Positions 23,857 through 38,882 of a stretch of DNA of 64,000 nt are shown piece after piece. A program made the position numbers and the translations under genes. The stretch's first letter is position 1. Every line of letters begins with the position of its first letter. Source of the stretch: Deltaproteobacteria bacterium (lineage in GTDB: Bacteria > SAR324 > JACQKK01); NCBI GenBank assembly GCA_029858505.1, contig JAOUEW010000002.1:1-64000 (forward strand), given 5' to 3'. A model generated the notes under the pieces. That model was not told the DNA's origin, searched no databases, and worked only from the letters and a program-made list of their open reading frames with translations.

Positions 23857-24067
23857 GGGGCGGCGGCAGGGAGGGTGCGGGTGACAATGCGGGTTCAGCC
23901 CACAGGGTATCACACCCCCCGGATGAGGCAACGGTTCCCCCTTAGCCTGGGTCTTAGCCCATGGTGGTACATGGAGATTGCGCCTTTACGAAAGTTGCGT
24001 TTTTCCGCCTAATGTGCTTAATATGCGCCATTTTGGGCGCTATGGTTTCCTTCTCCTGGGTAAAGCG

Positions 24068-26905
24068 ATGTTCTCTCTTCGCGGTGTTATTCTGCCTGTT
24101 TCCCTGGCCCTCCCGCTGGTCTTGTCTAGCTGCAATATCCCCAAGGCGTACAGGGGAACGGAGTTCCTGCTGCCCACCTGCGGCTACTGCCCAGACATCG
24201 CCCCCCCGGCGGCGGTGACCACCCCCGCCAACGTGCCGGTGACCCTCACCTACACGGTCACCGACACCGACAGCCCGGTGGTGACCCTGGCAGCGGTCAA
24301 GGCCCCCACCAAGGGCACGCTCTCGGCGTTTACCCTGGCCACCACCACGGGCAACATGACCAGCGGTTATACGTTTACCTTCACGGGCACCTACACCCCA
24401 AACGCCACCATGGCCGGGGCGGATTCCTTCGACCTGCAGGCCACCGACAATTCCCCCACCCCCAACGTGTCGCTGGTACCCAAGGTGAACGTAACCGTGA
24501 CCCCCTACCTCACCGGCATCACGGTGGCTCCGGCGAATCCTTTGGTGCCCAGGGGCACCACCAAGCAGTTCAGCGCGTCGGGGGCTTACAACGATGGCGT
24601 TGCCCGCCCCCTGCCCAATGCCTACACGGCTGCCCCCACCTGGAGCAGCGGCACCCCGGCCAACGCCACCATCAACAGCACGGGGTTGGCTTCGTTGCCG
24701 GCCACCGGAACCATCACGGGCACGTCCGTCATCACCGCCACCAGCGGGCTCATTTCTGGTACCACCACCCTCACCGTGGACATGCCCACCCTGGTCAGCA
24801 TTGCCGTGACTCCTGGCAACGTCACCGTGCCCAGGGGCACCAGCCAGCAATTCGCCGCCACGGGAACCTTTGTTGACGGAACCACCGGGGTCATCACAAC
24901 CCTGATGACCTGGTCCAGCGGCACCACCACCAACGCCACCATTGTCAGCACCTCTGGCTTGGCCACCGCCATCAACACCGGCAACATCACGGGTACTTCT
25001 CTCATCACCGCTACCGACCCGGCCAGCGGAAAGAAGGGAACCGCCACCCTCACCGTGGGCAACCCTAACCTAGTGAGCATCGCCGTGGGGCCGGGGCCGG
25101 GCTTCACCGTGCCCCGGGGCACCACCCAGCAGTTCACCGCCACGGGAACCTACTCCGATACCCAGGCGTTGACCTTGCCCAGCGTTTACACCGCCGCCCC
25201 CACCTGGAGCAGCCTCACCACCACCAATGCCACCGTGAACGCCACTGGCCTTGCCACGGCGGTAAACGGGGGAGCCATCGGTGGAACATCTTCTATCCGG
25301 GCAACCAGCGGTGCCATCATTGGCAGTTCTACCCTCACCGTGGGCAATCCCAACTTGGTCAGCATTGCGGTAACCCCGGCCAATGCCACCATCCTCACTC
25401 GGCAGACCCAGCAATACACCGCCACCGGAACGTTCTCAGATACCACGGTGGTGCCCATTTCCACCTACGGCTATACCGCAACCTGGACCTCCTCTAACCT
25501 CAATTCGGCTACCATTTCTGCCGCGGGCTTGGCTACGGTGGTGTATGCCGGGGTGGGCACCGGAACCATCAGCGCAACCAGTGGGGGTGTCACCGGCTCC
25601 ACGGGCCTCACCACTGTTCTTCAGCAAACCTGGGTTAGCGGGAGTAACACGACGGGTGCCCTAGGGGTATATGGCACCCAGGGCGTTGCCGCTGCCGCCA
25701 ACGTGCCGGGGGCAAGGGATAGCAGTATTTCTTGGGCAGGCACGGCGGGCGACCTATGGCTGTTTGGGGGAAATGGCTTTGCCACCGCCGCAGGAGGGCC
25801 GACCTTTCTAAATGATCTTTGGAAATTTAACCCCACCACGGGCCAATGGACCTGGGTTAGCGGCAGCAGTGGGTATAGTGCCCTGGGGGTGTACGGAACC
25901 CTAGGTGTCGCCGCCGCCACCAACGTGCCGGGGGCTAGGTATTACAGTGTTTCTTGGACAGACACGGCGGGGAACCTGTGGTTGTTCGGGGGAAATGGCT
26001 ATGGCGCAGCAGCGGCGTTGGGTAATCTGAACGACCTGTGGAAATGGAACGGTACCCAATGGACTTGGATTAGCGGAAAAAACGCGATAAGTGCCACTGG
26101 AGCATATGGCACCAAAGGCATCGCCGCCGCAGGCAACGTGCCGGGGGCACGTAGAAACAGCATTTCCTGGGCAGACACGGCGGGGAACCTGTGGCTGCTC
26201 GGGGGATTCGGTAATGACACCACCACAACGGCGGGCTACTTGAATGACCTGTGGAAATTTAACATCGCCACCAGCCAATGGACCTGGGTCAGCGGGAGTA
26301 ACACGACGGGTGCCCTGGGGGTGTATGGCACCAAAGGCGTCGCTGCCGCTACCAACGTGCCGGGGGCTAGATTTGGCAGCGCTACCTGGATAGACACGGC
26401 GGGAAACCTGTGGCTTTTCGGGGGGCAAGGTTTTAGTGCCTCTGGGCCGGCAGGCTGGCTGAACGACCTGTGGAAATGGAACGGCACTCAATGGACCTGG
26501 GTCAGCGGAGGCAGCGCGGTAAGTGCCACCGGGGTGTATGGCACCAAAGGCACCGCCGCCGCCGCCAACGTGCCTGGAAGCCGATACATTAGTGTTTCTT
26601 GGATAGACGCAGGGGGGAACCTGTGGTTGCTAGGAGGGTATGGGTTTGGAACCACTACATCGGGCTATCTGAACGACCTGTGGAAATTTAACCCCGCCAC
26701 CGGCCAGTGGACTTGGGTCAGCGGCGGCAGCGCGTTGGGTGCCCTGGGGGTGTATGGCACCCAGGGCACCCCCGCTGCCACCAACGTGCCGGGGGCACGG
26801 CAGGCCAGCATCTCCTGGAAAGACACGGCGGGGAATCTGTGGCTGTTTGGAGGAAACAATGGATTATCGAGTGTCATGAACGACCTGTGGAAGTTGAGCC
26901 CGTAA
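24068..26905 (+). CDS. Large lipoprotein with BIG2-like and Kelch-like repeats
   Basis: A 945-residue predicted surface lipoprotein. The start at 24068 gives a short signal ending in the lipobox LVLSSC (Cys22); an upstream in-frame ATG would bury it. After a cadherin/Big_9-like segment (VTDTDSPVVTLAAVKAPTKG) come four bacterial Ig-like (BIG2) units, each starting LVSIAV-P or similar and containing VPRGT-QQF-ATGT and a TWSS strand. The C-terminal ~430 residues hold six repeats with the core TWVSG, ALGVYGT, NVPGAR, then LWLFGG and LNDLWKF. These are Kelch/galactose-oxidase-like blades, so a six-bladed propeller is likely. No enzymatic residue is evident; adhesion or polysaccharide binding is plausible. 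A strong terminator follows. Confidence 0.82.
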   Translation: MFSLRGVILPVSLALPLVLSSCNIPKAYRGTEFLLPTCGYCPDIAPPAAVTTPANVPVTLTYTVTDTDSPVVTLAAVKAPTKGTLSAFTLATTTGNMTSGYTFTFTGTYTPNATMAGADSFDLQATDNSPTPNVSLVPKVNVTVTPYLTGITVAPANPLVPRGTTKQFSASGAYNDGVARPLPNAYTAAPTWSSGTPANATINSTGLASLPATGTITGTSVITATSGLISGTTTLTVDMPTLVSIAVTPGNVTVPRGTSQQFAATGTFVDGTTGVITTLMTWSSGTTTNATIVSTSGLATAINTGNITGTSLITATDPASGKKGTATLTVGNPNLVSIAVGPGPGFTVPRGTTQQFTATGTYSDTQALTLPSVYTAAPTWSSLTTTNATVNATGLATAVNGGAIGGTSSIRATSGAIIGSSTLTVGNPNLVSIAVTPANATILTRQTQQYTATGTFSDTTVVPISTYGYTATWTSSNLNSATISAAGLATVVYAGVGTGTISATSGGVTGSTGLTTVLQQTWVSGSNTTGALGVYGTQGVAAAANVPGARDSSISWAGTAGDLWLFGGNGFATAAGGPTFLNDLWKFNPTTGQWTWVSGSSGYSALGVYGTLGVAAATNVPGARYYSVSWTDTAGNLWLFGGNGYGAAAALGNLNDLWKWNGTQWTWISGKNAISATGAYGTKGIAAAGNVPGARRNSISWADTAGNLWLLGGFGNDTTTTAGYLNDLWKFNIATSQWTWVSGSNTTGALGVYGTKGVAAATNVPGARFGSATWIDTAGNLWLFGGQGFSASGPAGWLNDLWKWNGTQWTWVSGGSAVSATGVYGTKGTAAAANVPGSRYISVSWIDAGGNLWLLGGYGFGTTTSGYLNDLWKFNPATGQWTWVSGGSALGALGVYGTQGTPAATNVPGARQASISWKDTAGNLWLFGGNNGLSSVMNDLWKLSP

Positions 26906-28251: not shown

Positions 28252-28626
28252 GGGAGTTCACGAGGACATATCTTTGAAATTACAGGCTATGCGCCATGGG
28301 TCTGTCTGGTTATCCTATAAAAAATGTTGAGGGTTAAAGATTGTGATTGACTCCCTCCCCCTGTTTTTGATACGGATAGTTTCCAAAGACCATAGGTCTG
28401 GATGGACGTCATCATCCTGTGAGAAAACTGAAATTTAAAAGGTTTCCCCCCTTTTTCCTAGGGCGGTGCCCGCGGGGGGGCGGTGTGCAGAGAGCGTTAG
28501 GAGTGTTAGGCAGAGAGCCCTAAAGTTTAATTATTTATTTGTGAATTATTCTATGAAGGGGTGATGAGCCCCGACCCTATTCCGGGGCCTTATAACCAAG
28601 GTCCTTTTCATTCAGGAGATACCAAG
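28252..28626 (+). promoter_or_regulatory. Upstream region of the filament cluster
   Basis: This 375-bp gap carries no supported gene. Near its end (about 28518-28555) is an unusually AT-rich stretch typical of a strong promoter with an UP-like element. I cannot fix a single -35/-10 pair. A direct repeat GTTAGGAGTGTTAGG lies just before it. AGGAGATACCAAG gives a good ribosome site for the ATG at 28627. Confidence 0.5.
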
Positions 28627-30447
28627 ATGGCAGGCATCAATTTCAAGGCTGGTCCCAAGATGGTTCATCCCGAGGCACCCTCTGCGGTGGGCTCTCGGAA
28701 CTCCCTGAACCGCGACGGGAGAAATGAGTACAACGAAGGGCAGATGATGATTGATGAGGAGGTGGATAAGCTGATTAACCACGTCCAAGAAAAACTGCCC
28801 CCTGAAGTGCTGCAGGAACTGAACGTGATGGGGAACGTGAAGTCTCACCTGCACAACTACTTCAACCAGTCTTACCAAAACATGCTCAACCGTTACTTGG
28901 TAACGGCCGAGGATGAGTTGTCCAAAAAAATTCGGGACATGCTGGACAAAGAGGAAAACAAAGCCCTCAACCGCTACACGCCCAAAGAAATCCGCGAACT
29001 GGTGGAACAAGCTGGCGACCCCAAGGTGTTCAACACCGGCGAGGTGGAAAAATCCATGGTGAACATCATGGGCCACCTGCAGGGTCACTTGGCCAAGGGC
29101 TCTACCGAGTTTGAAGGCCTCACCACGCACATCTTGATGCAGCGCAACGACGTGGGCGGCCTGATTGCCGGCGAAAACGCCTACTCCATTCTGAAGGCCT
29201 CGTTTAAAGACCACTACTTCAAGCCCGACACCGTGATGGAAGTAAACGTGGCCTTGAATATTTTGGATCACGAGTTGATCAGCGCCGTGGTGCCCTACTA
29301 CGTCACCACCGAAGCTCTGGTGAAGGAAATCATCGCGGGGCAAATTCACGAGTTGATTGACCGCGAAATTGCCGACGTGAACAAGCAATTGGAAGCCGAA
29401 GGCCGCAACAAGCTTTCCGCCAACGAGCAGGTGTTTGAGAAAATCAAAGCCCTGGAAAACCACGTGGACGACGACGCGGATGACGAAGACTCCAAGCGCT
29501 ACCAATACATTTCCATGGGGTTCATGGAGCGCCTGAAAAACATGGGTGCCGAATTGGACAACATTCCCGCCGATGCCGATGGCGTGACCCAAACCATCGT
29601 GCGGTTTTTGAAAGCCGAAAACCTGCACAACCGGGGCTGGAGTTCCGCGGTGAACAACCTGACCCGCATTCTGGATGACACCCGGTTGGGCTATCAATAC
29701 GTGGAAAACCTGAAAGACACCCGTCGGCTGTCCATCCGTGAATACGAGCAGACCGACATCTCCCGGCTGCCCGACGAGCGCTACAACTTGTCTCTTCGCT
29801 ACCTGACCCGCGAACAGTTGGTGGAAGACCAAATCGCCTACTCTGCCCAAATTAGCGAGTTCCGCCGCGAAGTGATGCGGTTGTGGGACGTGGTGCAGGG
29901 CATTTACCACGAAGAAAAAGCCAAACAAAAACTGCGGGATTGGGATGACGTGGTGAACTCTACCCTCAGCCGCCGCGGTCGGGGCGGTGCCGGATGGTTT
30001 GAACCCGGCAAAGAGGGTGGCCCGCAATGGAACGAAATCACCTTCATTCAGCGCAAGCTGACCAACCTGGAAGAAATGAACCAGACCTATGCCATGCTGG
30101 TGACCGATTTCCAGGAGCGCTTTCGGATTGTCCGCCGCCGCTTGAACGAAATCTTTGACACGGCCTTCCCGGAACACCGGATGGTGGTGGAGCAGCGGTT
30201 GAACTTCCTGGAAACCCAGTTTTCCGCCTTCATGGCCGAGGTGAACCCGTACCACATTCAGCCAGGCCTGGTGCTGGATCTCCGCATGACCTCCATCAAG
30301 CGGGGAAAAACCACCGTGAAAATGATGGCCAACGTGCTGAACCACTATTTGATGTCACTCTCCAAGGATTATGTGATGGGGACGGTGGGTCAGTCTCACC
30401 GCCACGCGAACGTGGGCGATGCCATGGGTTCGTTCGGGGAAGCCTAG
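28627..30447 (+). CDS. CfpA-like cytoplasmic filament protein, paralogue 1
   Basis: A 606-residue cytoplasmic, mostly helical protein without signal or membrane segment. It closely parallels the product at 34616-36538. Shared landmarks are HPE-PSAVGSRNSL, DEEVDK, KLPPEV, MNRYL-like NRYLVTAEDEL, KVFNTGEVEKSMVNIMGHLQGHL, GENAYSILK, LDHELIS, DSKRY, NRGW...NTLTRILDDTRLGYQY, LPDERY, and a C-terminal NPYHIQPGLVLDL with TSIKRGKTT. From memory these match CfpA, the ribbon-forming cytoplasmic filament protein of spirochaetes, including the FNTGEIEKS block, the NPYHVQPG block and the overall length. The homology is recalled, not searched. It starts at 28627 after AGGAG. It heads a four-gene cluster and is followed by a 12-bp hairpin that may favour its mRNA segment. 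Confidence 0.75.
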   Translation: MAGINFKAGPKMVHPEAPSAVGSRNSLNRDGRNEYNEGQMMIDEEVDKLINHVQEKLPPEVLQELNVMGNVKSHLHNYFNQSYQNMLNRYLVTAEDELSKKIRDMLDKEENKALNRYTPKEIRELVEQAGDPKVFNTGEVEKSMVNIMGHLQGHLAKGSTEFEGLTTHILMQRNDVGGLIAGENAYSILKASFKDHYFKPDTVMEVNVALNILDHELISAVVPYYVTTEALVKEIIAGQIHELIDREIADVNKQLEAEGRNKLSANEQVFEKIKALENHVDDDADDEDSKRYQYISMGFMERLKNMGAELDNIPADADGVTQTIVRFLKAENLHNRGWSSAVNNLTRILDDTRLGYQYVENLKDTRRLSIREYEQTDISRLPDERYNLSLRYLTREQLVEDQIAYSAQISEFRREVMRLWDVVQGIYHEEKAKQKLRDWDDVVNSTLSRRGRGGAGWFEPGKEGGPQWNEITFIQRKLTNLEEMNQTYAMLVTDFQERFRIVRRRLNEIFDTAFPEHRMVVEQRLNFLETQFSAFMAEVNPYHIQPGLVLDLRMTSIKRGKTTVKMMANVLNHYLMSLSKDYVMGTVGQSHRHANVGDAMGSFGEA

Positions 30448-30604: not shown

Positions 30605-31831
30605 ATGACCAACGAGTACGCAGCACTTAGCACTCGCAAAGGATTTAACCGGTCTCTGAGCCACTTCCGGCTGGTGACCCAGTTGTCGGAACAGGCTGGG
30701 CAAGGCTTGAACTTGGCCGACCTTGTGGACGACCTGGAAAAAGATAAAAAAATCCAAAAGTCACAAATTGGGCCAATTCTGAACGCCTTGCTGGTGGAAA
30801 AATTTCAATACCAAACGTTGTCGTTCAACTTGGTTCAAGACATGAAAACGTTTGAGGACATTCAATCTCAAACGGAAAAATGGAACCGAGCGGAAATGGT
30901 TGCGGCCTATCACCATCCGCAGTTGGGCATTTCCCTGATCAACCCGAAGCGGAAGAACCATTGGGATGGGGTTCAAGATTTAAGCCGCCATGAATTGGTG
31001 GTGCTGTATGTGAAGGGCGTTCGGGACCAGGATAAAGCCATTGAACCTCAAGTGTTGGCCGGGCTGAAAGCCATGATGAACGGCGGAACGCTTCCGGCGG
31101 GATCTTCGTTCCACGATGCAGCCATTAAGCCCGTGGTGATGAAACCGAAGGTGGTGGAAGCCCCAGCCGAAGCACCCGCGCCCGCCCCTGCTGCGCCGGT
31201 GGCCAAGCCCGCGGCCCCGAAACCCGTGGCGGCAGCGCACACCCGGCCCGGCGCAAAGCCCGCGGTGGTGCCCCCAGCCAGGGGCACGGTGGCCACTAGC
31301 CGCAGGCCCGAAGTGAAACCTGTTGCCAAACCCGGTCGTGTTGGCACCGCGCCCGGCCTGCGCCCGGCCGTTGCCCCACCGTCTCACGCCAAAGGAGGTC
31401 CCGTGTCGAAACCACAACCCCCCACCGCTACCGCCCCCGCGGCCAAGGCGGCCGAAGGCCCAGCGGCGAAAGCCGCCGCCCCAGCAGATGGGGGCAACCG
31501 GGCACGCATGACCCCCAAATACAGCATTCAGGTGACCAACGAGTTGTTCCATAACGGAAACGTGGAAGCCTGGAAAAATATTATTGAATCCTTCAAGGTC
31601 AAGTTCACCACGTTGGAGGTGCACATTTTCCACGATGGCGAAAAGGTAAACGACATCAACTCCTTGTTTAAATGGGGGAAGGTGAAGCACGGAGACGTTC
31701 TTCTCTTTTCCATCTCGGGAGAGGAAATCCAAGGGGTGGCCAAACTGCAACGATACCTGTTTGAAGGCGCCAGTCCGCGTTTCCATAACTTTTTGAAAAA
31801 AGACGTCAACAAGGCTTTGAATCTCTTTTAA
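30605..31831 (+). CDS. Two-domain protein with Pro/Ala linker and HPr-like C-terminus
   Basis: A 408-residue protein. Residues 1-175 form a helical globular domain I do not recognise. Residues 176-300 are a long Pro/Ala/Lys-rich linker. Residues 305-390 form a compact alpha/beta domain with the order and spacing of HPr: strand YSIQVTNE, a His at 316 at the start of helix 1 (LFHNGNVEAWKNIIESF), strand TTLEVHIFHDG, helix NDINSLFKWG, strand GDVLLFSISGEE and helix GVAKLQRYL. H316 lies near the place of the HPr phospho-His, but the surrounding residues differ from GIHARPA. This similarity is my inference. The start at 30605 follows GGAG. The gene lies between a filament gene and a PPDK-like gene, 18 bp before the latter, suggesting phosphotransfer or a relic of it. 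Confidence 0.6.
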   Translation: MTNEYAALSTRKGFNRSLSHFRLVTQLSEQAGQGLNLADLVDDLEKDKKIQKSQIGPILNALLVEKFQYQTLSFNLVQDMKTFEDIQSQTEKWNRAEMVAAYHHPQLGISLINPKRKNHWDGVQDLSRHELVVLYVKGVRDQDKAIEPQVLAGLKAMMNGGTLPAGSSFHDAAIKPVVMKPKVVEAPAEAPAPAPAAPVAKPAAPKPVAAAHTRPGAKPAVVPPARGTVATSRRPEVKPVAKPGRVGTAPGLRPAVAPPSHAKGGPVSKPQPPTATAPAAKAAEGPAAKAAAPADGGNRARMTPKYSIQVTNELFHNGNVEAWKNIIESFKVKFTTLEVHIFHDGEKVNDINSLFKWGKVKHGDVLLFSISGEEIQGVAKLQRYLFEGASPRFHNFLKKDVNKALNLF

Positions 31832-31849: not shown

Positions 31850-34444
31850 ATGGCTCAGCTGATCGAATTTAACAAGGATGTTTACCTGGAAGGAACCGAT
31901 CTCCAGGAGCGTTTTGGCCTGCGAGGACGAAACGTGATGCAATTGGCCCAATTGAAGGCGCCCATTGCCCCTGGGTTTATGATTGATTCTTCCACCCTGA
32001 CGGGTGGCAAGGTAAAAAACCTGACACGGGCTGAGATCGAAAAAGCGGTCAAGAAAATTGAAAGCCTGACGGGAAAGACCTTTAACAAGGCCGACCGCCC
32101 CATGTTCTTTAAGGTGGTCATTTCTCCCTCGATCCAAATTGGCTCCTTGCGGTCGGTTCATACCGTGGGCATCAGCGATGTGACCGTGCAGGGGTTTGCC
32201 AAATACAGCGGCGAATCCTTTGCCTACGATGAATATCGCCACTACCTAGAGTCGTATGGCTCTCGGTTTATGGGGGTGTCCTCCAGCGAATTCAAGAAAA
32301 TTAAGGATGAAAACCCCAAGGCCAGCCCCAAAGAAATCTGCGCCCTTTATCGAGACAAAGTGGTGCCTGGGTTTCCGCAGGATGGTTACGACCAGTTGTT
32401 GACGGTGCTGACCAACTTGGCCGAGCAATACCTGAGTGATGAAATGAACGAGGGGATTGAGGCCGGGGTGTTGATTCAAATGATGGTGTATGGGAATTTT
32501 GGGAAGAACTCCTACAGTGGCTCTTACTTTACCCGCAATATTGTGACCGGAGAGGCCCAGTTGACCGGGTATTTCGCCCGCAATCAGTTCGATTCCCGGC
32601 CCGACACGGGGGAAGACATCAACAAAATCGGCCCGAAGCACCTGAAAGTGCTAAAGGATTTTGCCACCCAACTGGAAGAAAAGTTTCTCGATATTCGCCA
32701 GGTGAAATTCACCATTGAGGAAGACCGGCTGTGGGTGATCGAGCAAGATCCGGTAGATACCAAATCGACCCAGGCGGAAGTTCGCACCTTCTTGGATTTA
32801 CACAAGAAGGGTCTGATTACCCGTAAAAAGCTGGTGGAAGCCATTCCTCCGGCCCAGATTCAAGACCTTCTCCACCCCGTGATCGACGTGAAGTCGACGC
32901 GGAGCATGGTGAAATTGGTGGGCGGTATCGCGGGCTCTCCTGGGGCCGCCGTGGGCCGCGTGGCGTTCTCCACCGAAAAATTGATGAAAGAATATCATCG
33001 CTGCACGCTGGCGGGCATCAACTCGAACCTGATTCTGGTGCGCCCCCATACCGATGCGGAAGACGTTCAGTCCATCGAGGTGGGCCGGGCGGTGATTGCC
33101 TCGGTGGGTGGATATGCCTCTCACGCCCCGGTGGTGGCTCGCAGTTTAAGAAAGCCCTGCTTGGTGAAAGAAAACATTGAGTACAAAAAAGATCACATTT
33201 TGGTGGAAGGACACCGGATCAACGAGTTTGACGTGGTGTCTTTGGAAGTTCCCACCTACACAGACCCCAGCATGTGGATTGGCGAGGCCAAAATGGTCTA
33301 CCCAGACACGGCTCAGAATGGGTTGGAAGAATACATCGGAGAAGTGGGCGAGTTCGTGAAAGACTTCCAGGTGATGGCCATTGCCGAAAGCGATCGCGAT
33401 ATTGAAGTGGCCCTGAGTTTGGGTGCCACCGGTATTGGGCTGCTTTCCATGGACGGAATGCTGAACCATGAAGCCACCCATGATTCCTTCGTGGAAGCGC
33501 TGCTGACCAAGGAACCCGAGCAGCGGAAGAAGTCTTTGAAGAACGTGGAAGGGAAGTTGATCAAACGCATTGTGGAGATCTTCAAACGGGTGGGTGGACG
33601 GAAGATCATCTTCTTGATGCAAGACAAACCCTTGTACGAATTCCTTCCCCATTCCGAGAAAGAAATGGAGGAAGTGTATGGGAAGATCAGCGGGAAGATG
33701 GGTGTGTCTCTGTCGGAGCTGAAAGCCCGAGCAGGACAACTGCGGAACATTAACCCCATGATGGGGTTGCGGGGTAGCCGTATCGCCATCTCTTACCCTG
33801 ATCTTTACGAAATGCAGTTTGAGGCCATCCTGCGGGCCGCCATGCAGTACTCCGACGGCAAAGCCGGAAAAGTGAATTTCGACCTAATGGTGCCAGCGGT
33901 GATGACCGACGCGGAAATGCGCTTTATCCGCACCGGCCGGAATATTGAAGGCATCATTATTCGCGGATTCCTTGGGGTTGAGAGCGATTTGCTGGAAGAG
34001 TGGAAAATGACCTCCCTTCCCTTCCAATATAAAATCGGCGCCATGATTGAACTGCCGGCTGCCGCCCTGATGGCTGGGCACATGGCCAAACAATCCGAGT
34101 TCTTCTCCATCGGCACCCATACGTTGACCCAAACGACCAACGGAATGTCGCACGACGATATCAATATGTTCCTGCCGTCCTACACCCAGTACGACATTCT
34201 CCGGGATAACCCGTTCCAAATCCTTTCATCTCCGGTGAAGCATCTGATTGCCATGGCCAAAGACTTTGGAAAGGTAACCCGGCCAGACATTCAGGTGGGG
34301 CTGTGCGGTTCCCATGCCTCTGACCCGCTGAATATTAAGTTCGCCTTCGAGGCCAACCTGAACTTTGTGACCTGCAATCCCTATGGAGTGCCTATTGCCA
34401 AGTTGGCGGTGGCTCAAATTGTGGCAAAGAACCAACCCGGTTGA
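31850..34444 (+). CDS. Degenerate pyruvate phosphate dikinase-like protein
   Basis: An 864-residue protein with full PPDK length and order. The N-terminal ATP-grasp half is altered: GGKGAN becomes GLRGRN, the VRSGA-SMPG segment is gone, and the QTR-GKRT motif is replaced by EQDPVDTKST. The swivelling domain keeps the phospho-His in GGYASHAPVVAR (H425). In the PEP barrel, NPMMGLRGSR (R641) and MIE (E734) remain and the catalytic Cys is kept in GLCGSH (C819). RTEHMF has become LSMDGML, and GTNDLTQ is GTHTLTQ (H757 for Asn). It is therefore unlikely to make PEP or pyruvate in the normal way. From memory, spirochaetes also carry a ppdK-annotated gene near cfpA. A role in the filament system is inferred from context. 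Confidence 0.8.
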   Translation: MAQLIEFNKDVYLEGTDLQERFGLRGRNVMQLAQLKAPIAPGFMIDSSTLTGGKVKNLTRAEIEKAVKKIESLTGKTFNKADRPMFFKVVISPSIQIGSLRSVHTVGISDVTVQGFAKYSGESFAYDEYRHYLESYGSRFMGVSSSEFKKIKDENPKASPKEICALYRDKVVPGFPQDGYDQLLTVLTNLAEQYLSDEMNEGIEAGVLIQMMVYGNFGKNSYSGSYFTRNIVTGEAQLTGYFARNQFDSRPDTGEDINKIGPKHLKVLKDFATQLEEKFLDIRQVKFTIEEDRLWVIEQDPVDTKSTQAEVRTFLDLHKKGLITRKKLVEAIPPAQIQDLLHPVIDVKSTRSMVKLVGGIAGSPGAAVGRVAFSTEKLMKEYHRCTLAGINSNLILVRPHTDAEDVQSIEVGRAVIASVGGYASHAPVVARSLRKPCLVKENIEYKKDHILVEGHRINEFDVVSLEVPTYTDPSMWIGEAKMVYPDTAQNGLEEYIGEVGEFVKDFQVMAIAESDRDIEVALSLGATGIGLLSMDGMLNHEATHDSFVEALLTKEPEQRKKSLKNVEGKLIKRIVEIFKRVGGRKIIFLMQDKPLYEFLPHSEKEMEEVYGKISGKMGVSLSELKARAGQLRNINPMMGLRGSRIAISYPDLYEMQFEAILRAAMQYSDGKAGKVNFDLMVPAVMTDAEMRFIRTGRNIEGIIIRGFLGVESDLLEEWKMTSLPFQYKIGAMIELPAAALMAGHMAKQSEFFSIGTHTLTQTTNGMSHDDINMFLPSYTQYDILRDNPFQILSSPVKHLIAMAKDFGKVTRPDIQVGLCGSHASDPLNIKFAFEANLNFVTCNPYGVPIAKLAVAQIVAKNQPG

Positions 34445-34591: not shown

Positions 34592-34615
34592 GTGTTAAAC
34601 CCAAAGGAGATTCCC

Positions 34616-36538
34616 ATGTCTGAGTTCATGGTCAAACACGGCCCGAATGTGATCCATCCAGAAACCCCCAGTGCGGTGGGTTCCCGTAACTCCTTGTTTC
34701 GCGATAGCCGGGACGAATACTCTGAGTCGAGGCTGGTGGTCGACGAGGAAGTCGACAAAATTTTGAACCACATTCACGCCAAACTGCCGCCGGAAGTCGC
34801 CTCTCGGTTGGAAGTGATGGGTTCGGTGAAGTCGAAGCTGCATACGTACTACAACCAGTCCATGCAGAACATGTCCAACCGGTACCTCACCACGTTGGAA
34901 GATGAACTGGGTAAAAAGGTTCGCAACATGATTGACACCGAAGAAATGCGGGGTTTGAATCGCTATGCCCCTCGGTCGGTGTCTTACCTGTTGGACCGCA
35001 TTGCTGGTGGCGACAAGTTCAACACCGGTGAAATTGAAAAATCCATCGTGAACATGTATGGCCACTTGCACGGCCACGTTCAACGGGAAATGAACGACCT
35101 GGAAACCCGCACCAACTCGTTGTTGCGCCGGAAAATTGACGTGGGTGCCTTTGTGCGGGGCGAAAACGCTTACGCCATCGTGAAGTGCTCCTTCCGCGAT
35201 GACCCGCTCAAACCTGAAAACGTAACCCAGGTGAAATTGGCTTTGGGGATTTTGGATTCCGAATTGATCAGCCCCATTTACCCCTGGGCAACCCCTACCC
35301 TGAACATCGTGAAAGACATCGTGTCCAAGCAGATTCAAGATGCTTTGGACAGCGAGTTGGACCAAATCAACGCCAGCTTGGTGGATGAGGGCAAGTCGGA
35401 ATTGACCGCGGAAGAGAAGATTTTCGAGCGGGTCAAAGCCCTGGACAACCACGTGTCGGATGACCTGATGGAAGGCTCCAAACGCTACAGCACCGTGTCC
35501 AAGAAAATCTTTGACGCCGTGGAAGGGCTGGAAGCCACCATTGACTGGAATGACTATGACCCCATGCGCGTGCGGGAAAACACCTTCAAGCTGATTGAAT
35601 CGGAAAACATCCGAAACCGCGGTTACAACACGGCGGTCAACACCTTGACCCACGTGTTGGACTGGAGCCGGATGGGCTATCAGCACATTGAAAACTACAA
35701 GAACTCTCGGGATTGCATCATTCGCGAATACCACGAGACCAATGAGGACTTGCTGCCCGATGAGCGGTATGCTCTGCGCTTGCGGCACCTGACCTACCAC
35801 CAAATTTTGGTGTGGCGCGAAGCCTATCAAGCGCAATTGAGCGAGTTCATCCGCACCGTGATGGAACTGTGGAGCGTGGTGGAGAAAATTTACGAGGAAG
35901 ACCGCAACAAGAACCGGAAAGAAGACTGGGAGTCCTTGTACAACCGCTTGGTGACTTCTGGTGAAGAAGGTGGCTCTTGGATTATGCGCCCACGGTTTGG
36001 CGGCGGTGATGAAGAGGAAGAATCCTCGACCTCTTCGGAAGAAGCTCCGAAGTGGAACGAAATTAACTTCGTGCAGCCCCAGGAAAACGGCCTGACCGCG
36101 GCCAACCCCAAGCTGCAAAATCAATTTTCCGATATCCGCGGGCGGTTTCCCGTGATGCGGGAGCGCCTGGCCAAGGTGTTCGGCGATCTGACCACCGATG
36201 TGCGTGACATTGTGGAAGCTCGGATCACTTTCTTGGAGAACCAGTTCAACCTGTTTGGCATGCAAATCAATCCGTACCATGTGAACCCCGGTGTTCTGCT
36301 GGAGCTTGACATTGTGAGCGTCAAGCGCAAAAACACCACCATGATGGCCATGGCCAACGTGCTGAACGAATTCTTGTCCAGCGTGTCCAAAGGGTTCCAA
36401 GACGCGGCCTTTGCCTCCTTCTCTCGGCGCCGCTCTACTCAACGGGCTGACTTGGCTGAAGGGTTTGGTTCCGCCACCCAGTTGGGAAGCGATGACCAAG
36501 CGCCTGTGGTTGCTCCTCACGAAGAAACGATGGAGTAA
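34616..36538 (+). CDS. CfpA-like cytoplasmic filament protein, paralogue 2
   Basis: A 640-residue, mainly helical cytoplasmic protein paralogous to the product at 28627-30447. It looks closer to recalled spirochaete CfpA: KFNTGEIEKSIVNMYGHLHG, VGAFVRGENAYAIVKCSF, LDSELISPI, GSKRYSTVSKK, NRGYNTAVNTLTHVLDWSR, LPDERYALRL, NPYHVNPGVLLEL, SVKRKNTTMMAMANVLNEF and a tail with FASFSRRRSTQR. A linker at about 455-480 is rich in Glu and Ser. The start at 34616 follows AAAGGAGA seven bases upstream. It is the last gene of the cluster and is closed by a perfect terminator. Two paralogues may co-assemble or form distinct ribbons. Confidence 0.78.
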   Translation: MSEFMVKHGPNVIHPETPSAVGSRNSLFRDSRDEYSESRLVVDEEVDKILNHIHAKLPPEVASRLEVMGSVKSKLHTYYNQSMQNMSNRYLTTLEDELGKKVRNMIDTEEMRGLNRYAPRSVSYLLDRIAGGDKFNTGEIEKSIVNMYGHLHGHVQREMNDLETRTNSLLRRKIDVGAFVRGENAYAIVKCSFRDDPLKPENVTQVKLALGILDSELISPIYPWATPTLNIVKDIVSKQIQDALDSELDQINASLVDEGKSELTAEEKIFERVKALDNHVSDDLMEGSKRYSTVSKKIFDAVEGLEATIDWNDYDPMRVRENTFKLIESENIRNRGYNTAVNTLTHVLDWSRMGYQHIENYKNSRDCIIREYHETNEDLLPDERYALRLRHLTYHQILVWREAYQAQLSEFIRTVMELWSVVEKIYEEDRNKNRKEDWESLYNRLVTSGEEGGSWIMRPRFGGGDEEEESSTSSEEAPKWNEINFVQPQENGLTAANPKLQNQFSDIRGRFPVMRERLAKVFGDLTTDVRDIVEARITFLENQFNLFGMQINPYHVNPGVLLELDIVSVKRKNTTMMAMANVLNEFLSSVSKGFQDAAFASFSRRRSTQRADLAEGFGSATQLGSDDQAPVVAPHEETME

Positions 36539-36613
36539 TCCCTGAGTCCACCGAACCCGGATTAGAACATCTGGGTTCATGGAAACAGATCCAGGAAATA
36601 CATACCGTATTCA

Positions 36614-36642
36614 GGGGCCGGTTATACCGGCCCCTTTTTTTT
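36614..36642 (+). terminator. Rho-independent terminator of the filament cluster
   Basis: GGGGCCGG (36614-36621) and CCGGCCCC (36627-36634) form a perfect 8-bp stem with a 5-nt loop, followed by eight T. Confidence 0.95.
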
Positions 36643-36703
36643 GTGGTTTTTTCAGGCATCGAGAGACCTTGTCTTTTTGGGGGGGTCTTCTTGTGGGTTG
36701 TCA

Positions 36704-36731
36704 TTGCCCCCCATTGCCAACCGGGTATAAT
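36704..36731 (+). promoter_or_regulatory. Probable sigma70 promoter of gspL, leaderless
   Basis: A perfect -10 TATAAT (36726-36731) has a weak -35 TTGCCC (36704-36709) with 16-bp spacing; TTGTCA at 36698 has a 22-bp spacing that is too long. The expected transcription start falls at about 36738, the A of the gspL ATG. No ribosome site is seen, so the mRNA may be leaderless. Confidence 0.55.
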
Positions 36732-36737
36732 ACGGCC

Positions 36738-38882
36738 ATGAACGACTCCTTCCATTTGATTTGTTTGGCCCCTTCCTTTGCCGAATGGGTCACCCTTTCT
36801 GGGGGTCTGCCCAAACAGACCAGCCGACAGGTTGCGTTTAAAATTGAAGAGGGCCAAGACGAGGATGTAAAGGCGTGCTTTTTTCCCACCGATTGGCGGG
36901 TGGATCCCAAAGGGAAAACGCACACGGTGGTGGTCTTATCTTCAGAATGGTGCCGGTACAGAAAACTTTATTTCCCCTTCAAAGACGCTAAAAAAATTCG
37001 ACAAGCCATTCCGTTTGAACTGGAAAGTGATTTACTGGAGGACTTGAACCGGTATGTTTACAATGTACGGATGATTTCCCAGGGGGAGGGGACGCTGGTC
37101 GTGGTCTCGTTGTTGGAAAAGAACATTCTGGAGGAGGTTCTGCGAAGTGTGGAAGGGGGTGGATTTCGCCCTGTCCGGGTGACGGCGTCCTCTGTGGTGC
37201 TCCCGCGAGAGGAAGATAAGAAAGGATTGGAATGTCAGGTGTACTTGGGGCCGGAGGAGGCTGTGGTTGTGTTGGACCAAGATGGGGTTCCCATGACGGC
37301 AAAATCCTTCGAGGTCCCTTCAGCGCCAGGCTTTTCTTCAGAACAAGAAACGATTTCACCGGATCAGGGGTTGTTGAAACTGCAAGAGAGTGCCCGGAGG
37401 GAAGAATTTAGGAACAAAACCAACCGATGGATGGAGGAAATCACTAGGTTTATTCGGAATCTAGCCATGGGGGGAGAAGTTCAGGTACAACTCCATGGTT
37501 TGTATGCTCCCTTGGTGGTCTGGAGGGGAAATAGGATGGAATGGGCGGAGAAAGACGCGGCCCTGCCTGCTGGGTGGCTAGAGGCCGCCAAGGAACGCCT
37601 GAAGGATGAAGAAGAACAAAGGGAGAAGGAAAAAAAAGGGGAGGAAAAGAACGAAGATAAGGCCGAATTAAAAACCAGCGGGCAAGCGGGTCTTGGTAAA
37701 AAACAGTCAGATAAAACGAAACAAATCGCTCTGCAAAAAGAACTGGCCAAGCTGAAAGCGCTGGAAGAAAAAAAACTTCAACGCAGGGATCAAGAAAAAA
37801 AGAAAACCCAGGTACGCGCGAATAAAATATATTCCGACTGGAAAACCAAATATACCCGGTTGAAAGCGCGCCAACGGGCGGATTGGAAAGATTTAAAAAA
37901 CAAACTGTGGGAGGAAAGAAATAAATTCTGGGCGGAAGATAAAACATCAAAGGCCGCGACGAAAAAAGAAAACGCCATGAGGGCCCAGGCCGAACGTTCG
38001 GGGCAATTGGTCGAATATCGCAAAGCGGCGGATGAGCGAGAAACCAAGCGGAAGGAAAATTTGCGGGGGAAGTACGCAAAGTTGAAAGCCCAGCAAGCTC
38101 AAACCCGTAAGACGGCTTGGGCAGACATTAAAAAAGCCCGGCGGGAAATGAAATCCCAATGGAAAACGGAGATTCAGGAGATTTGGGCTGAGTGGGACCA
38201 AAAATTCCCCTTGCCGCAAGATAACGAAAATATCGAGAAACAGAAACAAACAAACACCAGCAAAAAAGAAAAAAAGATTTCTGGGCGATGGTCACTGGGG
38301 GTGGCGATGGAAGCCGTGGCCAACCCGGAGGAACTATGGGGTTCGAGAGAGGGAAATTTTTATCGCAGAATGCCCTCTTTTCAATTCGGAGGGCTCCAAG
38401 GGATTCCCCGCCCCCCTGGCCGGTTGTTGGTGATGGGGATAAGCCTGGTTGCGCTGATGGTGGGAAATTCCACCCTGAACATGACTTTACTCAAGCAAGA
38501 GGATGCGGCCCTCAGCCAAGAGTTAGATCAGATTTATCAGCGCTACCTTCCTCCGGGTTTGGCCCCCGCCGAGCGCATGCGGGTCTTACGGCAAAAGGTA
38601 GATGACTTGGGGAGGACAAAAGGAGCTTCCGGTGGCGAAGGGGTTCGGGCGTTGGCTGTGATGGAGCAGGTGTCGATGGCCGCGGCGGGTTTGGCGGGCC
38701 TAGTGGTGGACAGCGTGATGGTGGATGAGCGGAGCGGTCTGTTATCCGGGCGAGCAACGGATGAAAACAGCCCCCGTGCGTTCCAGCAGAGGCTGGCAAC
38801 GGGCCAAGGGAGAATAACAGGGGAATTGTCGTTCAGCAAGCAGGGAGCAGATACCCGTTTCAACCTGCATTGGTCCTATTAG
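36738..38882 (+). CDS. gspL: GspL-like T2SS protein with coiled-coil insertion
   Basis: A 714-residue protein identified as the T2SS inner-membrane platform protein GspL. The evidence is an actin-like N-terminal part (about 1-275, with IPFELESDLLEDLNRYVYNV), a single TM helix (561-580), a ferredoxin-like periplasmic tail, and its place just before gspM and gspN. GspL recruits the GspE ATPase. It is far longer than usual (about 400 residues). Between the cytoplasmic domain and the TM helix lies a Lys/Glu-rich coiled coil of about 230 residues (282-512) with regularly spaced Trp. The insertion is visibly more AT-rich than its surroundings. The ATG at 36738 is chosen because longer frames run through the terminator. 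GspE is not in this window. Confidence 0.75.
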   Translation: MNDSFHLICLAPSFAEWVTLSGGLPKQTSRQVAFKIEEGQDEDVKACFFPTDWRVDPKGKTHTVVVLSSEWCRYRKLYFPFKDAKKIRQAIPFELESDLLEDLNRYVYNVRMISQGEGTLVVVSLLEKNILEEVLRSVEGGGFRPVRVTASSVVLPREEDKKGLECQVYLGPEEAVVVLDQDGVPMTAKSFEVPSAPGFSSEQETISPDQGLLKLQESARREEFRNKTNRWMEEITRFIRNLAMGGEVQVQLHGLYAPLVVWRGNRMEWAEKDAALPAGWLEAAKERLKDEEEQREKEKKGEEKNEDKAELKTSGQAGLGKKQSDKTKQIALQKELAKLKALEEKKLQRRDQEKKKTQVRANKIYSDWKTKYTRLKARQRADWKDLKNKLWEERNKFWAEDKTSKAATKKENAMRAQAERSGQLVEYRKAADERETKRKENLRGKYAKLKAQQAQTRKTAWADIKKARREMKSQWKTEIQEIWAEWDQKFPLPQDNENIEKQKQTNTSKKEKKISGRWSLGVAMEAVANPEELWGSREGNFYRRMPSFQFGGLQGIPRPPGRLLVMGISLVALMVGNSTLNMTLLKQEDAALSQELDQIYQRYLPPGLAPAERMRVLRQKVDDLGRTKGASGGEGVRALAVMEQVSMAAAGLAGLVVDSVMVDERSGLLSGRATDENSPRAFQQRLATGQGRITGELSFSKQGADTRFNLHWSY

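Follow-up and report, generated by a model that had tools for sequence, protein, structure and literature searches.

The PEP sites of PPDK and PTS enzyme I are structurally equivalent (PMC5371819). In Treponema pallidum, TP0746 is treated in the literature as a working glycolytic PPDK that forms ATP, and its expression and mutations have been read accordingly (PMC10013896, PMC8525777). The gene is well expressed (PMC8525777), and no enzyme assay of TP0746 was found in the literature searched. A link between CfpA, PPDK and HPr was also sought in the literature and none was found, and the papers searched contained no regulator or partner of CfpA filaments.

Here, we describe a PPDK-like gene enclosed by two cfpA genes in a SAR324 bacterium (Ca. 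Lambdaproteobacteria), as assigned from its named relatives. The analysed stretch of DNA, referred to as the window, comprises 64,000 nucleotides (contig JAOUEW010000002.1 of assembly GCA_029858505.1, positions 1 to 64,000). An initial annotation of this stretch had described the gene product as a PPDK-like protein that selectively lost catalytic motifs and was repurposed for a role tied to the filaments.

Gene organization of the cfpA locus

The locus has the gene order cfpA, orf3, PPDK-like gene, cfpA and contains the following features.

28561-30447, + strand: cfpA copy A, cytoplasmic filament protein (NF040882, 654 bits, cut-off 500; model match from 28648)
30605-31831, + strand: orf3, 408 aa (conserved ATG; family alignment, match start and AlphaFold)
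31505-31828, + strand: predicted HPr-like domain of orf3 (residues 363-470 of the 470-aa ORF; H378 codon 31550-31552; Foldseek)
31850-34444, + strand: predicted PPDK-like pseudoenzyme, 864 aa (full-length alignment, NCBIfam, Pfam, residue mapping and AlphaFold/PDB match)
31850-32764, + strand: former ATP-grasp domain, approximately residues 1-305 (nucleotide residues replaced by R25, V90, Q284, K286 and E298)
32867-33259, + strand: swivelling His domain, approximately residues 340-470 (Pfam PF00391; H425 codon 33122-33124; conservation)
33347-34429, + strand: PEP-barrel domain, approximately residues 500-860 (Pfam PF02896; replacements S533, L589, H757 and T758; E734, R641 and C819 kept)
34592-36538, + strand: cfpA copy B (NF040882, 733 bits, cut-off 500)

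The ORF list contains an upstream start for orf3 at 30419, which gives the 470-aa ORF; the conserved ATG is located at 30605. A third cfpA gene is located elsewhere in the genome, which also encodes a PtsP-type enzyme I. The second cfpA is directly followed by a gene for a GspL-like protein with a long charged insert (36579-38882), and a large ORF at 23978-26905 contains repeated Ig-like and Kelch-like repeats and probably encodes a surface protein.

The PPDK-like protein retains the PPDK fold and lacks residues of both active sites

The ORF of the PPDK-like protein begins with ATG and runs through 864 codons without interruption. Its product aligns with PPDK along the whole length (E-values down to 1e-109; approximately 31% identity to Clostridium symbiosum PPDK), in agreement with the initial annotation, which had stated that full PPDK length is kept. 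An AlphaFold model calculated with 34 relatives in the input has a pLDDT of 88 and a pTM of 0.80, and its top PDB matches are PPDK structures (E-value 1e-64). With the NCBIfam equivalog model TIGR01828, the protein reaches 516 bits and thus fails the curated cut-off, which is set at 843. The Pfam PPDK_N domain reaches 16.8 against a cut-off of 27, and the His and PEP domains score above their cut-offs.

Active-site residues were mapped in the numbering of C. symbiosum PPDK. The roles of these residues in PPDK are established, including that of D769 as a Mg2+ ligand, and only the correspondence was computed here. At the ATP site, K22, R92, D321 and E323 correspond to R25, V90, Q284 and K286, Q335 to E298 (or to Q299 by a one-column shift) and R337 to D300/P301. 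The replacement of the ATP-grasp motifs that had been noted initially thus applies to K22, R92, D321, E323 and R337, and to Q335 unless the shifted column is taken. In the His domain, T453 is replaced by A423, and H455 is preserved as H425. At the PEP site, R561, R617, N768 and D769 are replaced by S533, L589, H757 and T758, respectively, and D620, R665, E745 and C831 are kept as D592, R641, E734 and C819. Among R561, R617, E745, N768, D769 and C831, the window protein therefore retains only E745 and C831. The mapping confirms the previously described loss of the RTEH Arg and of the Asn in GTNDLTQ (GTHTLTQ in the window) as well as the presence of the His, the Glu, the Cys and one barrel Arg. 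The losses of R617 and D769 had not been recognized.

Across 37 genuine PPDKs, a motif scan recovered each of the four ATP-site motifs in 36-37 proteins. None of the nine full-length orthologs of the window protein contains them, and the scan found no ATP motif anywhere in the N-terminal half, which excludes the possibility that the ATP-grasp residues are merely shifted. The HPr-docking domain of enzyme I (PF05524) gave no Pfam match at E-values up to 1. Judged from its sequence, the window protein is not a PPDK by the residue and score tests and is not an enzyme I by the domain test. It very probably has no PEP chemistry.

H425 is the invariant residue in SAR324 orthologs

The gene is kept in nine other SAR324 genera with 59-70% identity, and the losses are common to all of these orthologs (family f1). 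Their dN values of 0.16-0.24 are roughly a tenth of the dS values of 1.8-2.8, which are saturated. Chance and decay to a pseudogene are ruled out by this retention and by dN being far lower than dS.

H425, the candidate phospho-His by its correspondence to that of PPDK, is invariant in all orthologs. Together with one other stretch, the surrounding loop (residues 419-438) is the most conserved part of the family, with 16 of 20 columns conserved versus 36% overall (binomial p = 6e-5). A surface-type stretch at residues 780-800 is also strongly conserved. The position of C831 is occupied by Cys in six of the nine full-length proteins, by Ser or Tyr in the remaining three and by Ala in the partial tenth ortholog, so the Cys does not belong to any conserved core. 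The initial proposal of a conserved His/Cys core thus holds for the His but not for the Cys. Its suggestion of repurposing is supported, as the protein is not a working PPDK and its conserved H425 stretch fits a kept role of the His domain.

A second SAR324 family (f4) contains cfpA-linked relatives that lack the ATP site and have an intact PEP site and His. At least two other SAR324 genomes (G030 and G031; loci L090-L093) carry several cfpA genes with neither orf3 nor a PPDK-like gene beside them, indicating that the filaments do not need the pair.

A second PPDK paralog of the window's SAR324 family was observed both in the genome of the window (C4, L002:679-3417) and in relatives (L058, L061 and L062). 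It keeps the PEP site and the His and is altered at D321, E323, Q335 and R337, and its ATP-grasp domain is shortened in the window's genome. This paralog is possibly another half-enzyme.

Loss of the ATP site is shared with cfpA-linked proteins of Spirochaetota

A scan of named genomes with the CfpA alignment returned SAR324 only; spirochaete genomes were reached via the FlaA marker. cfpA is present in 98 of the 297 Spirochaetota genomes. Both cfpA and orf3 occur in 96 of these genomes, only one of them in three and neither in 198 (Fisher p = 6e-75, uncorrected for relatedness among the genomes). Neither gene was found in approximately 330 genomes outside SAR324 and Spirochaetota. Among the 38 spirochaete cfpA loci that were read, 34 contain orf3 and a PPDK-like gene near cfpA, immediately adjacent in 30 and with the PPDK-like gene approximately 5-6 kb further on in four. 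The proposed tie to the filaments is thus supported by synteny with cfpA in two phyla, with the order cfpA-orf3-PPDK-like(-cfpA) in SAR324, and by the co-inheritance of orf3 with cfpA.

All 32 full-length spirochaete cfpA-linked proteins carry the replacements K22R, R92V/I, E323K/R and Q335E/D/N. All 32 also retain H455, R561, R617, D620, R665, E745, N768, D769 and C831. By contrast, 30 of 30 genuine PPDKs have the complete set of residues; almost all of them come from genomes that also supplied the cfpA-linked proteins. This alignment with true PPDKs and with the spirochaete neighbours of cfpA, which had been suggested as a check, separates the two groups completely at these four ATP-site positions. 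The TIGR01828 scores also differ, with approximately 609-722 bits for the full-length cfpA-linked proteins versus approximately 1250-1420 bits for the genuine PPDKs (cut-off, 843). Most spirochaete genomes that encode a cfpA-linked protein also encode a genuine PPDK and pyruvate kinase.

In a phylogenetic tree, read as an unrooted split, a branch with 100% support separates the SAR324 and spirochaete cfpA-linked proteins from the genuine PPDKs, with which the other SAR324 paralog is placed. The f4 members (G032 and G033) lie on long branches. The loss of the ATP-site residues is family-wide, and that of the PEP-site residues is confined to the lineage of the window. The initial view that both ATP and PEP chemistry are missing is accordingly upheld for the window protein and does not extend to the PEP site of the wider family. 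The simplest history is a single loss of ATP chemistry in the cfpA-linked ancestor, with the PEP site disappearing afterwards in family f1, to which the window belongs. The cfpA-linked family has almost certainly lost PPDK activity and forms a graded series from active PPDK through half-enzyme to the full pseudoenzyme of the window, in which the His is still conserved.

The only PPDK match of Treponema pallidum belongs to the cfpA-linked family

In one spirochaete genome (G423, locus L168), the residues A869 and P655 are encoded at positions that agree with the published nucleotide coordinates of TP0746 (PMC10013896), and the genome is that of T. pallidum Nichols or a very close copy. The cfpA-linked protein is the sole PPDK match in this genome and scores 608.5 bits, below the TIGR01828 cut-off. 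The ATP-site positions of TP0746 are R28, V92, E301, R303, E315 and K317 in its own numbering, and H442 and the PEP site are intact. Neither a genuine PPDK nor a pyruvate kinase was found in this genome. T. pallidum is thus left with a PPDK-like protein whose ATP site is dead and with no recognized enzyme for an ATP-making conversion of PEP to pyruvate. The PPDK annotation of T. pallidum becomes directly testable.

The C-terminal domain of orf3 is predicted to adopt an HPr fold

In the AlphaFold model, orf3 consists of an N-terminal domain, a disordered Pro/Ala linker and a C-terminal domain with an HPr fold. The last 108 residues are modelled confidently in the order strand-helix-strand-strand-short helix-strand-helix. 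A Foldseek search with the orf3 model yielded HPr or Crh structures as all of its 25 best PDB matches, with probabilities of 0.54-0.99, TM-scores of 0.42-0.68 on the HPr chain and E-values of 0.03-0.2. The length and partial disorder of the query keep these E-values modest. H378 occupies an invariant alignment column and is located directly before the first helix, matching His15 of HPr in the secondary-structure order. An SLFK motif is found at the position of HPr Ser46 in the second helix.

The resemblance of orf3 to HPr is structural. Comparisons with Pfam, NCBIfam and PDB sequences identified no credible family, since all matches were at chance level or fell in the linker and none was to HPr. 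The Pfam PTS-HPr family (PF00381) did not match, and HPr Arg17-Pro18 is replaced. The HPr profile-profile score of 22.5 exceeds those of all 100 shuffles (maximum, 20.5); this comparison taken alone is weak, with E-values of 0.002-0.004 and probabilities of 9-14%. On the strength of the model, we are confident that the C-terminal domain has an HPr fold.

Stand-alone paralogs of the HPr-like domain are encoded in genomes of the window's family (L246:9785-10333, L247:8826-9299 and L249:8270-8623). They have lost the His at the active position, which argues that the HPr-like fold itself does not demand this residue.

Discussion

We propose, with a probability of about 0.55, that the window gene product has lost catalysis and belongs to a distinct, cfpA-linked PPDK offshoot that ancestrally operated a relay from PEP via the PPDK-like His to an HPr-like protein. 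The intact PEP site in the wider family together with the HPr-fold domain in orf3 suggests such a PEP-driven protein phosphorelay. In the ancestral form, represented by the spirochaete and f4 proteins, PEP would phosphorylate the His of the PPDK-like protein. The swivelling domain would then meet no nucleotide at the former ATP-grasp domain and would hand the phosphate to the HPr-like His in place of AMP/PPi. The HPr-like domain could report the PEP/pyruvate status to the CfpA filament machinery or modify it. CfpA would be the obvious candidate target of the phosphate by synteny, and synteny and co-inheritance suggest contact of the PPDK-like protein and orf3 with CfpA. The relatives of the window protein most probably function with their partner as enzyme I does with HPr, and the odds of such a phosphorelay in spirochaetes, as read from residues and models, are only a little short of even.

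In the lineage of the window, the relay could not start from PEP at the PPDK-like protein. With the PEP step gone, the protein would now either act as a docking or scaffold subunit for CfpA and the HPr-like protein or accept phosphate as an intermediate from a different source, for which the PtsP-like enzyme I is a candidate. H425 and H378 are still conserved, which suggests that a docking function, or a relay function supplied by a different donor, persists.

A pure scaffold, in which the PPDK-like fold is a structural partner of CfpA and orf3, the H425 loop is a binding surface and no phosphotransfer occurs in the window's lineage, is less likely than the relay. In its favour, neither active site is functional by its residues in the family of the window, surface-type stretches such as residues 780-800 and the His loop are strongly conserved, the linkage to cfpA is permanent, and the two His residues could be kept for structure. 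However, a complete PEP site, as found in 32 of 32 relatives, would be superfluous for a scaffold, and no member has replaced the His, whereas the Cys and Arg vary. The HPr-like paralogs also show that the His of orf3 can go when it is not needed.

A metabolic enzyme with an altered donor site, which converts PEP and pyruvate in metabolism, binds a different phosphate donor or acceptor at its altered ATP-grasp domain and is only incidentally linked to cfpA, is improbable. In its favour, the PEP site is intact in the spirochaete and f4 proteins, and T. pallidum expresses its gene well (PMC8525777) and has no other PPDK or pyruvate kinase. It is opposed by the exchange of the acidic E323 for Lys or Arg in all spirochaete members, by the genuine PPDK and pyruvate kinase in most of the same genomes, by the near-perfect cfpA-orf3 co-inheritance and by the retention of the gene in the window's lineage despite the loss of the PEP site. 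The family is probably a protein phosphorelay or a filament scaffold rather than a metabolic enzyme. An ordinary divergent or misaligned PPDK that is still active with shifted ATP-grasp residues, as the full length and fold might suggest, is hardly credible in view of the motif scan and of replacements that are consistent across two phyla.

The proposal of an ancestral relay, of which the window protein is a dead member, can tentatively be extended, at less than even odds. The CfpA filaments of spirochaetes and SAR324 would be served by a PPDK-derived, PTS-like phosphorelay, with the ATP-dead PPDK as the enzyme-I analogue and the HPr-fold protein as the acceptor that replaces the nucleotide. 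TP0746 would then be the relay enzyme, leaving T. pallidum with no known ATP-making step from PEP to pyruvate. If true, CfpA filaments would gain a regulator or partner in the PEP-reading, HPr-like pair that is conserved next to cfpA, and central metabolism would be linked to the cytoskeleton.

Comparison with known systems

The window protein shares the full-length three-domain fold, the swivelling His domain and the PEP barrel with PPDK. The cfpA-linked family differs from PPDK in its missing ATP site, its sub-cut-off score and its separate clade, and the window's lineage additionally lacks the PEP site. Like PTS enzyme I, the spirochaete and f4 members combine a PEP barrel and a swivelling His with no nucleotide chemistry, and the PPDK-like gene likewise lies beside a gene for an HPr-fold protein. 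The residues expected of a working PEP site plus a phospho-His are present in f4 and in all 32 members from spirochaetes; the window protein lacks this combination. Unlike enzyme I, the PPDK-like protein is derived from PPDK, contains a remnant ATP-grasp domain and lacks PF05524. orf3 is predicted to share the open-faced sandwich fold of HPr and Crh, with its His where the first helix begins and SLFK at the second helix. It differs from them by the missing PTS-HPr match, the replaced Arg17-Pro18, the extra domain attached via a disordered linker and the tie to cfpA. TP0746 retains the PEP site that the window protein has lost, but it lies near TP0748 (CfpA) and matches the window in gene order and family.
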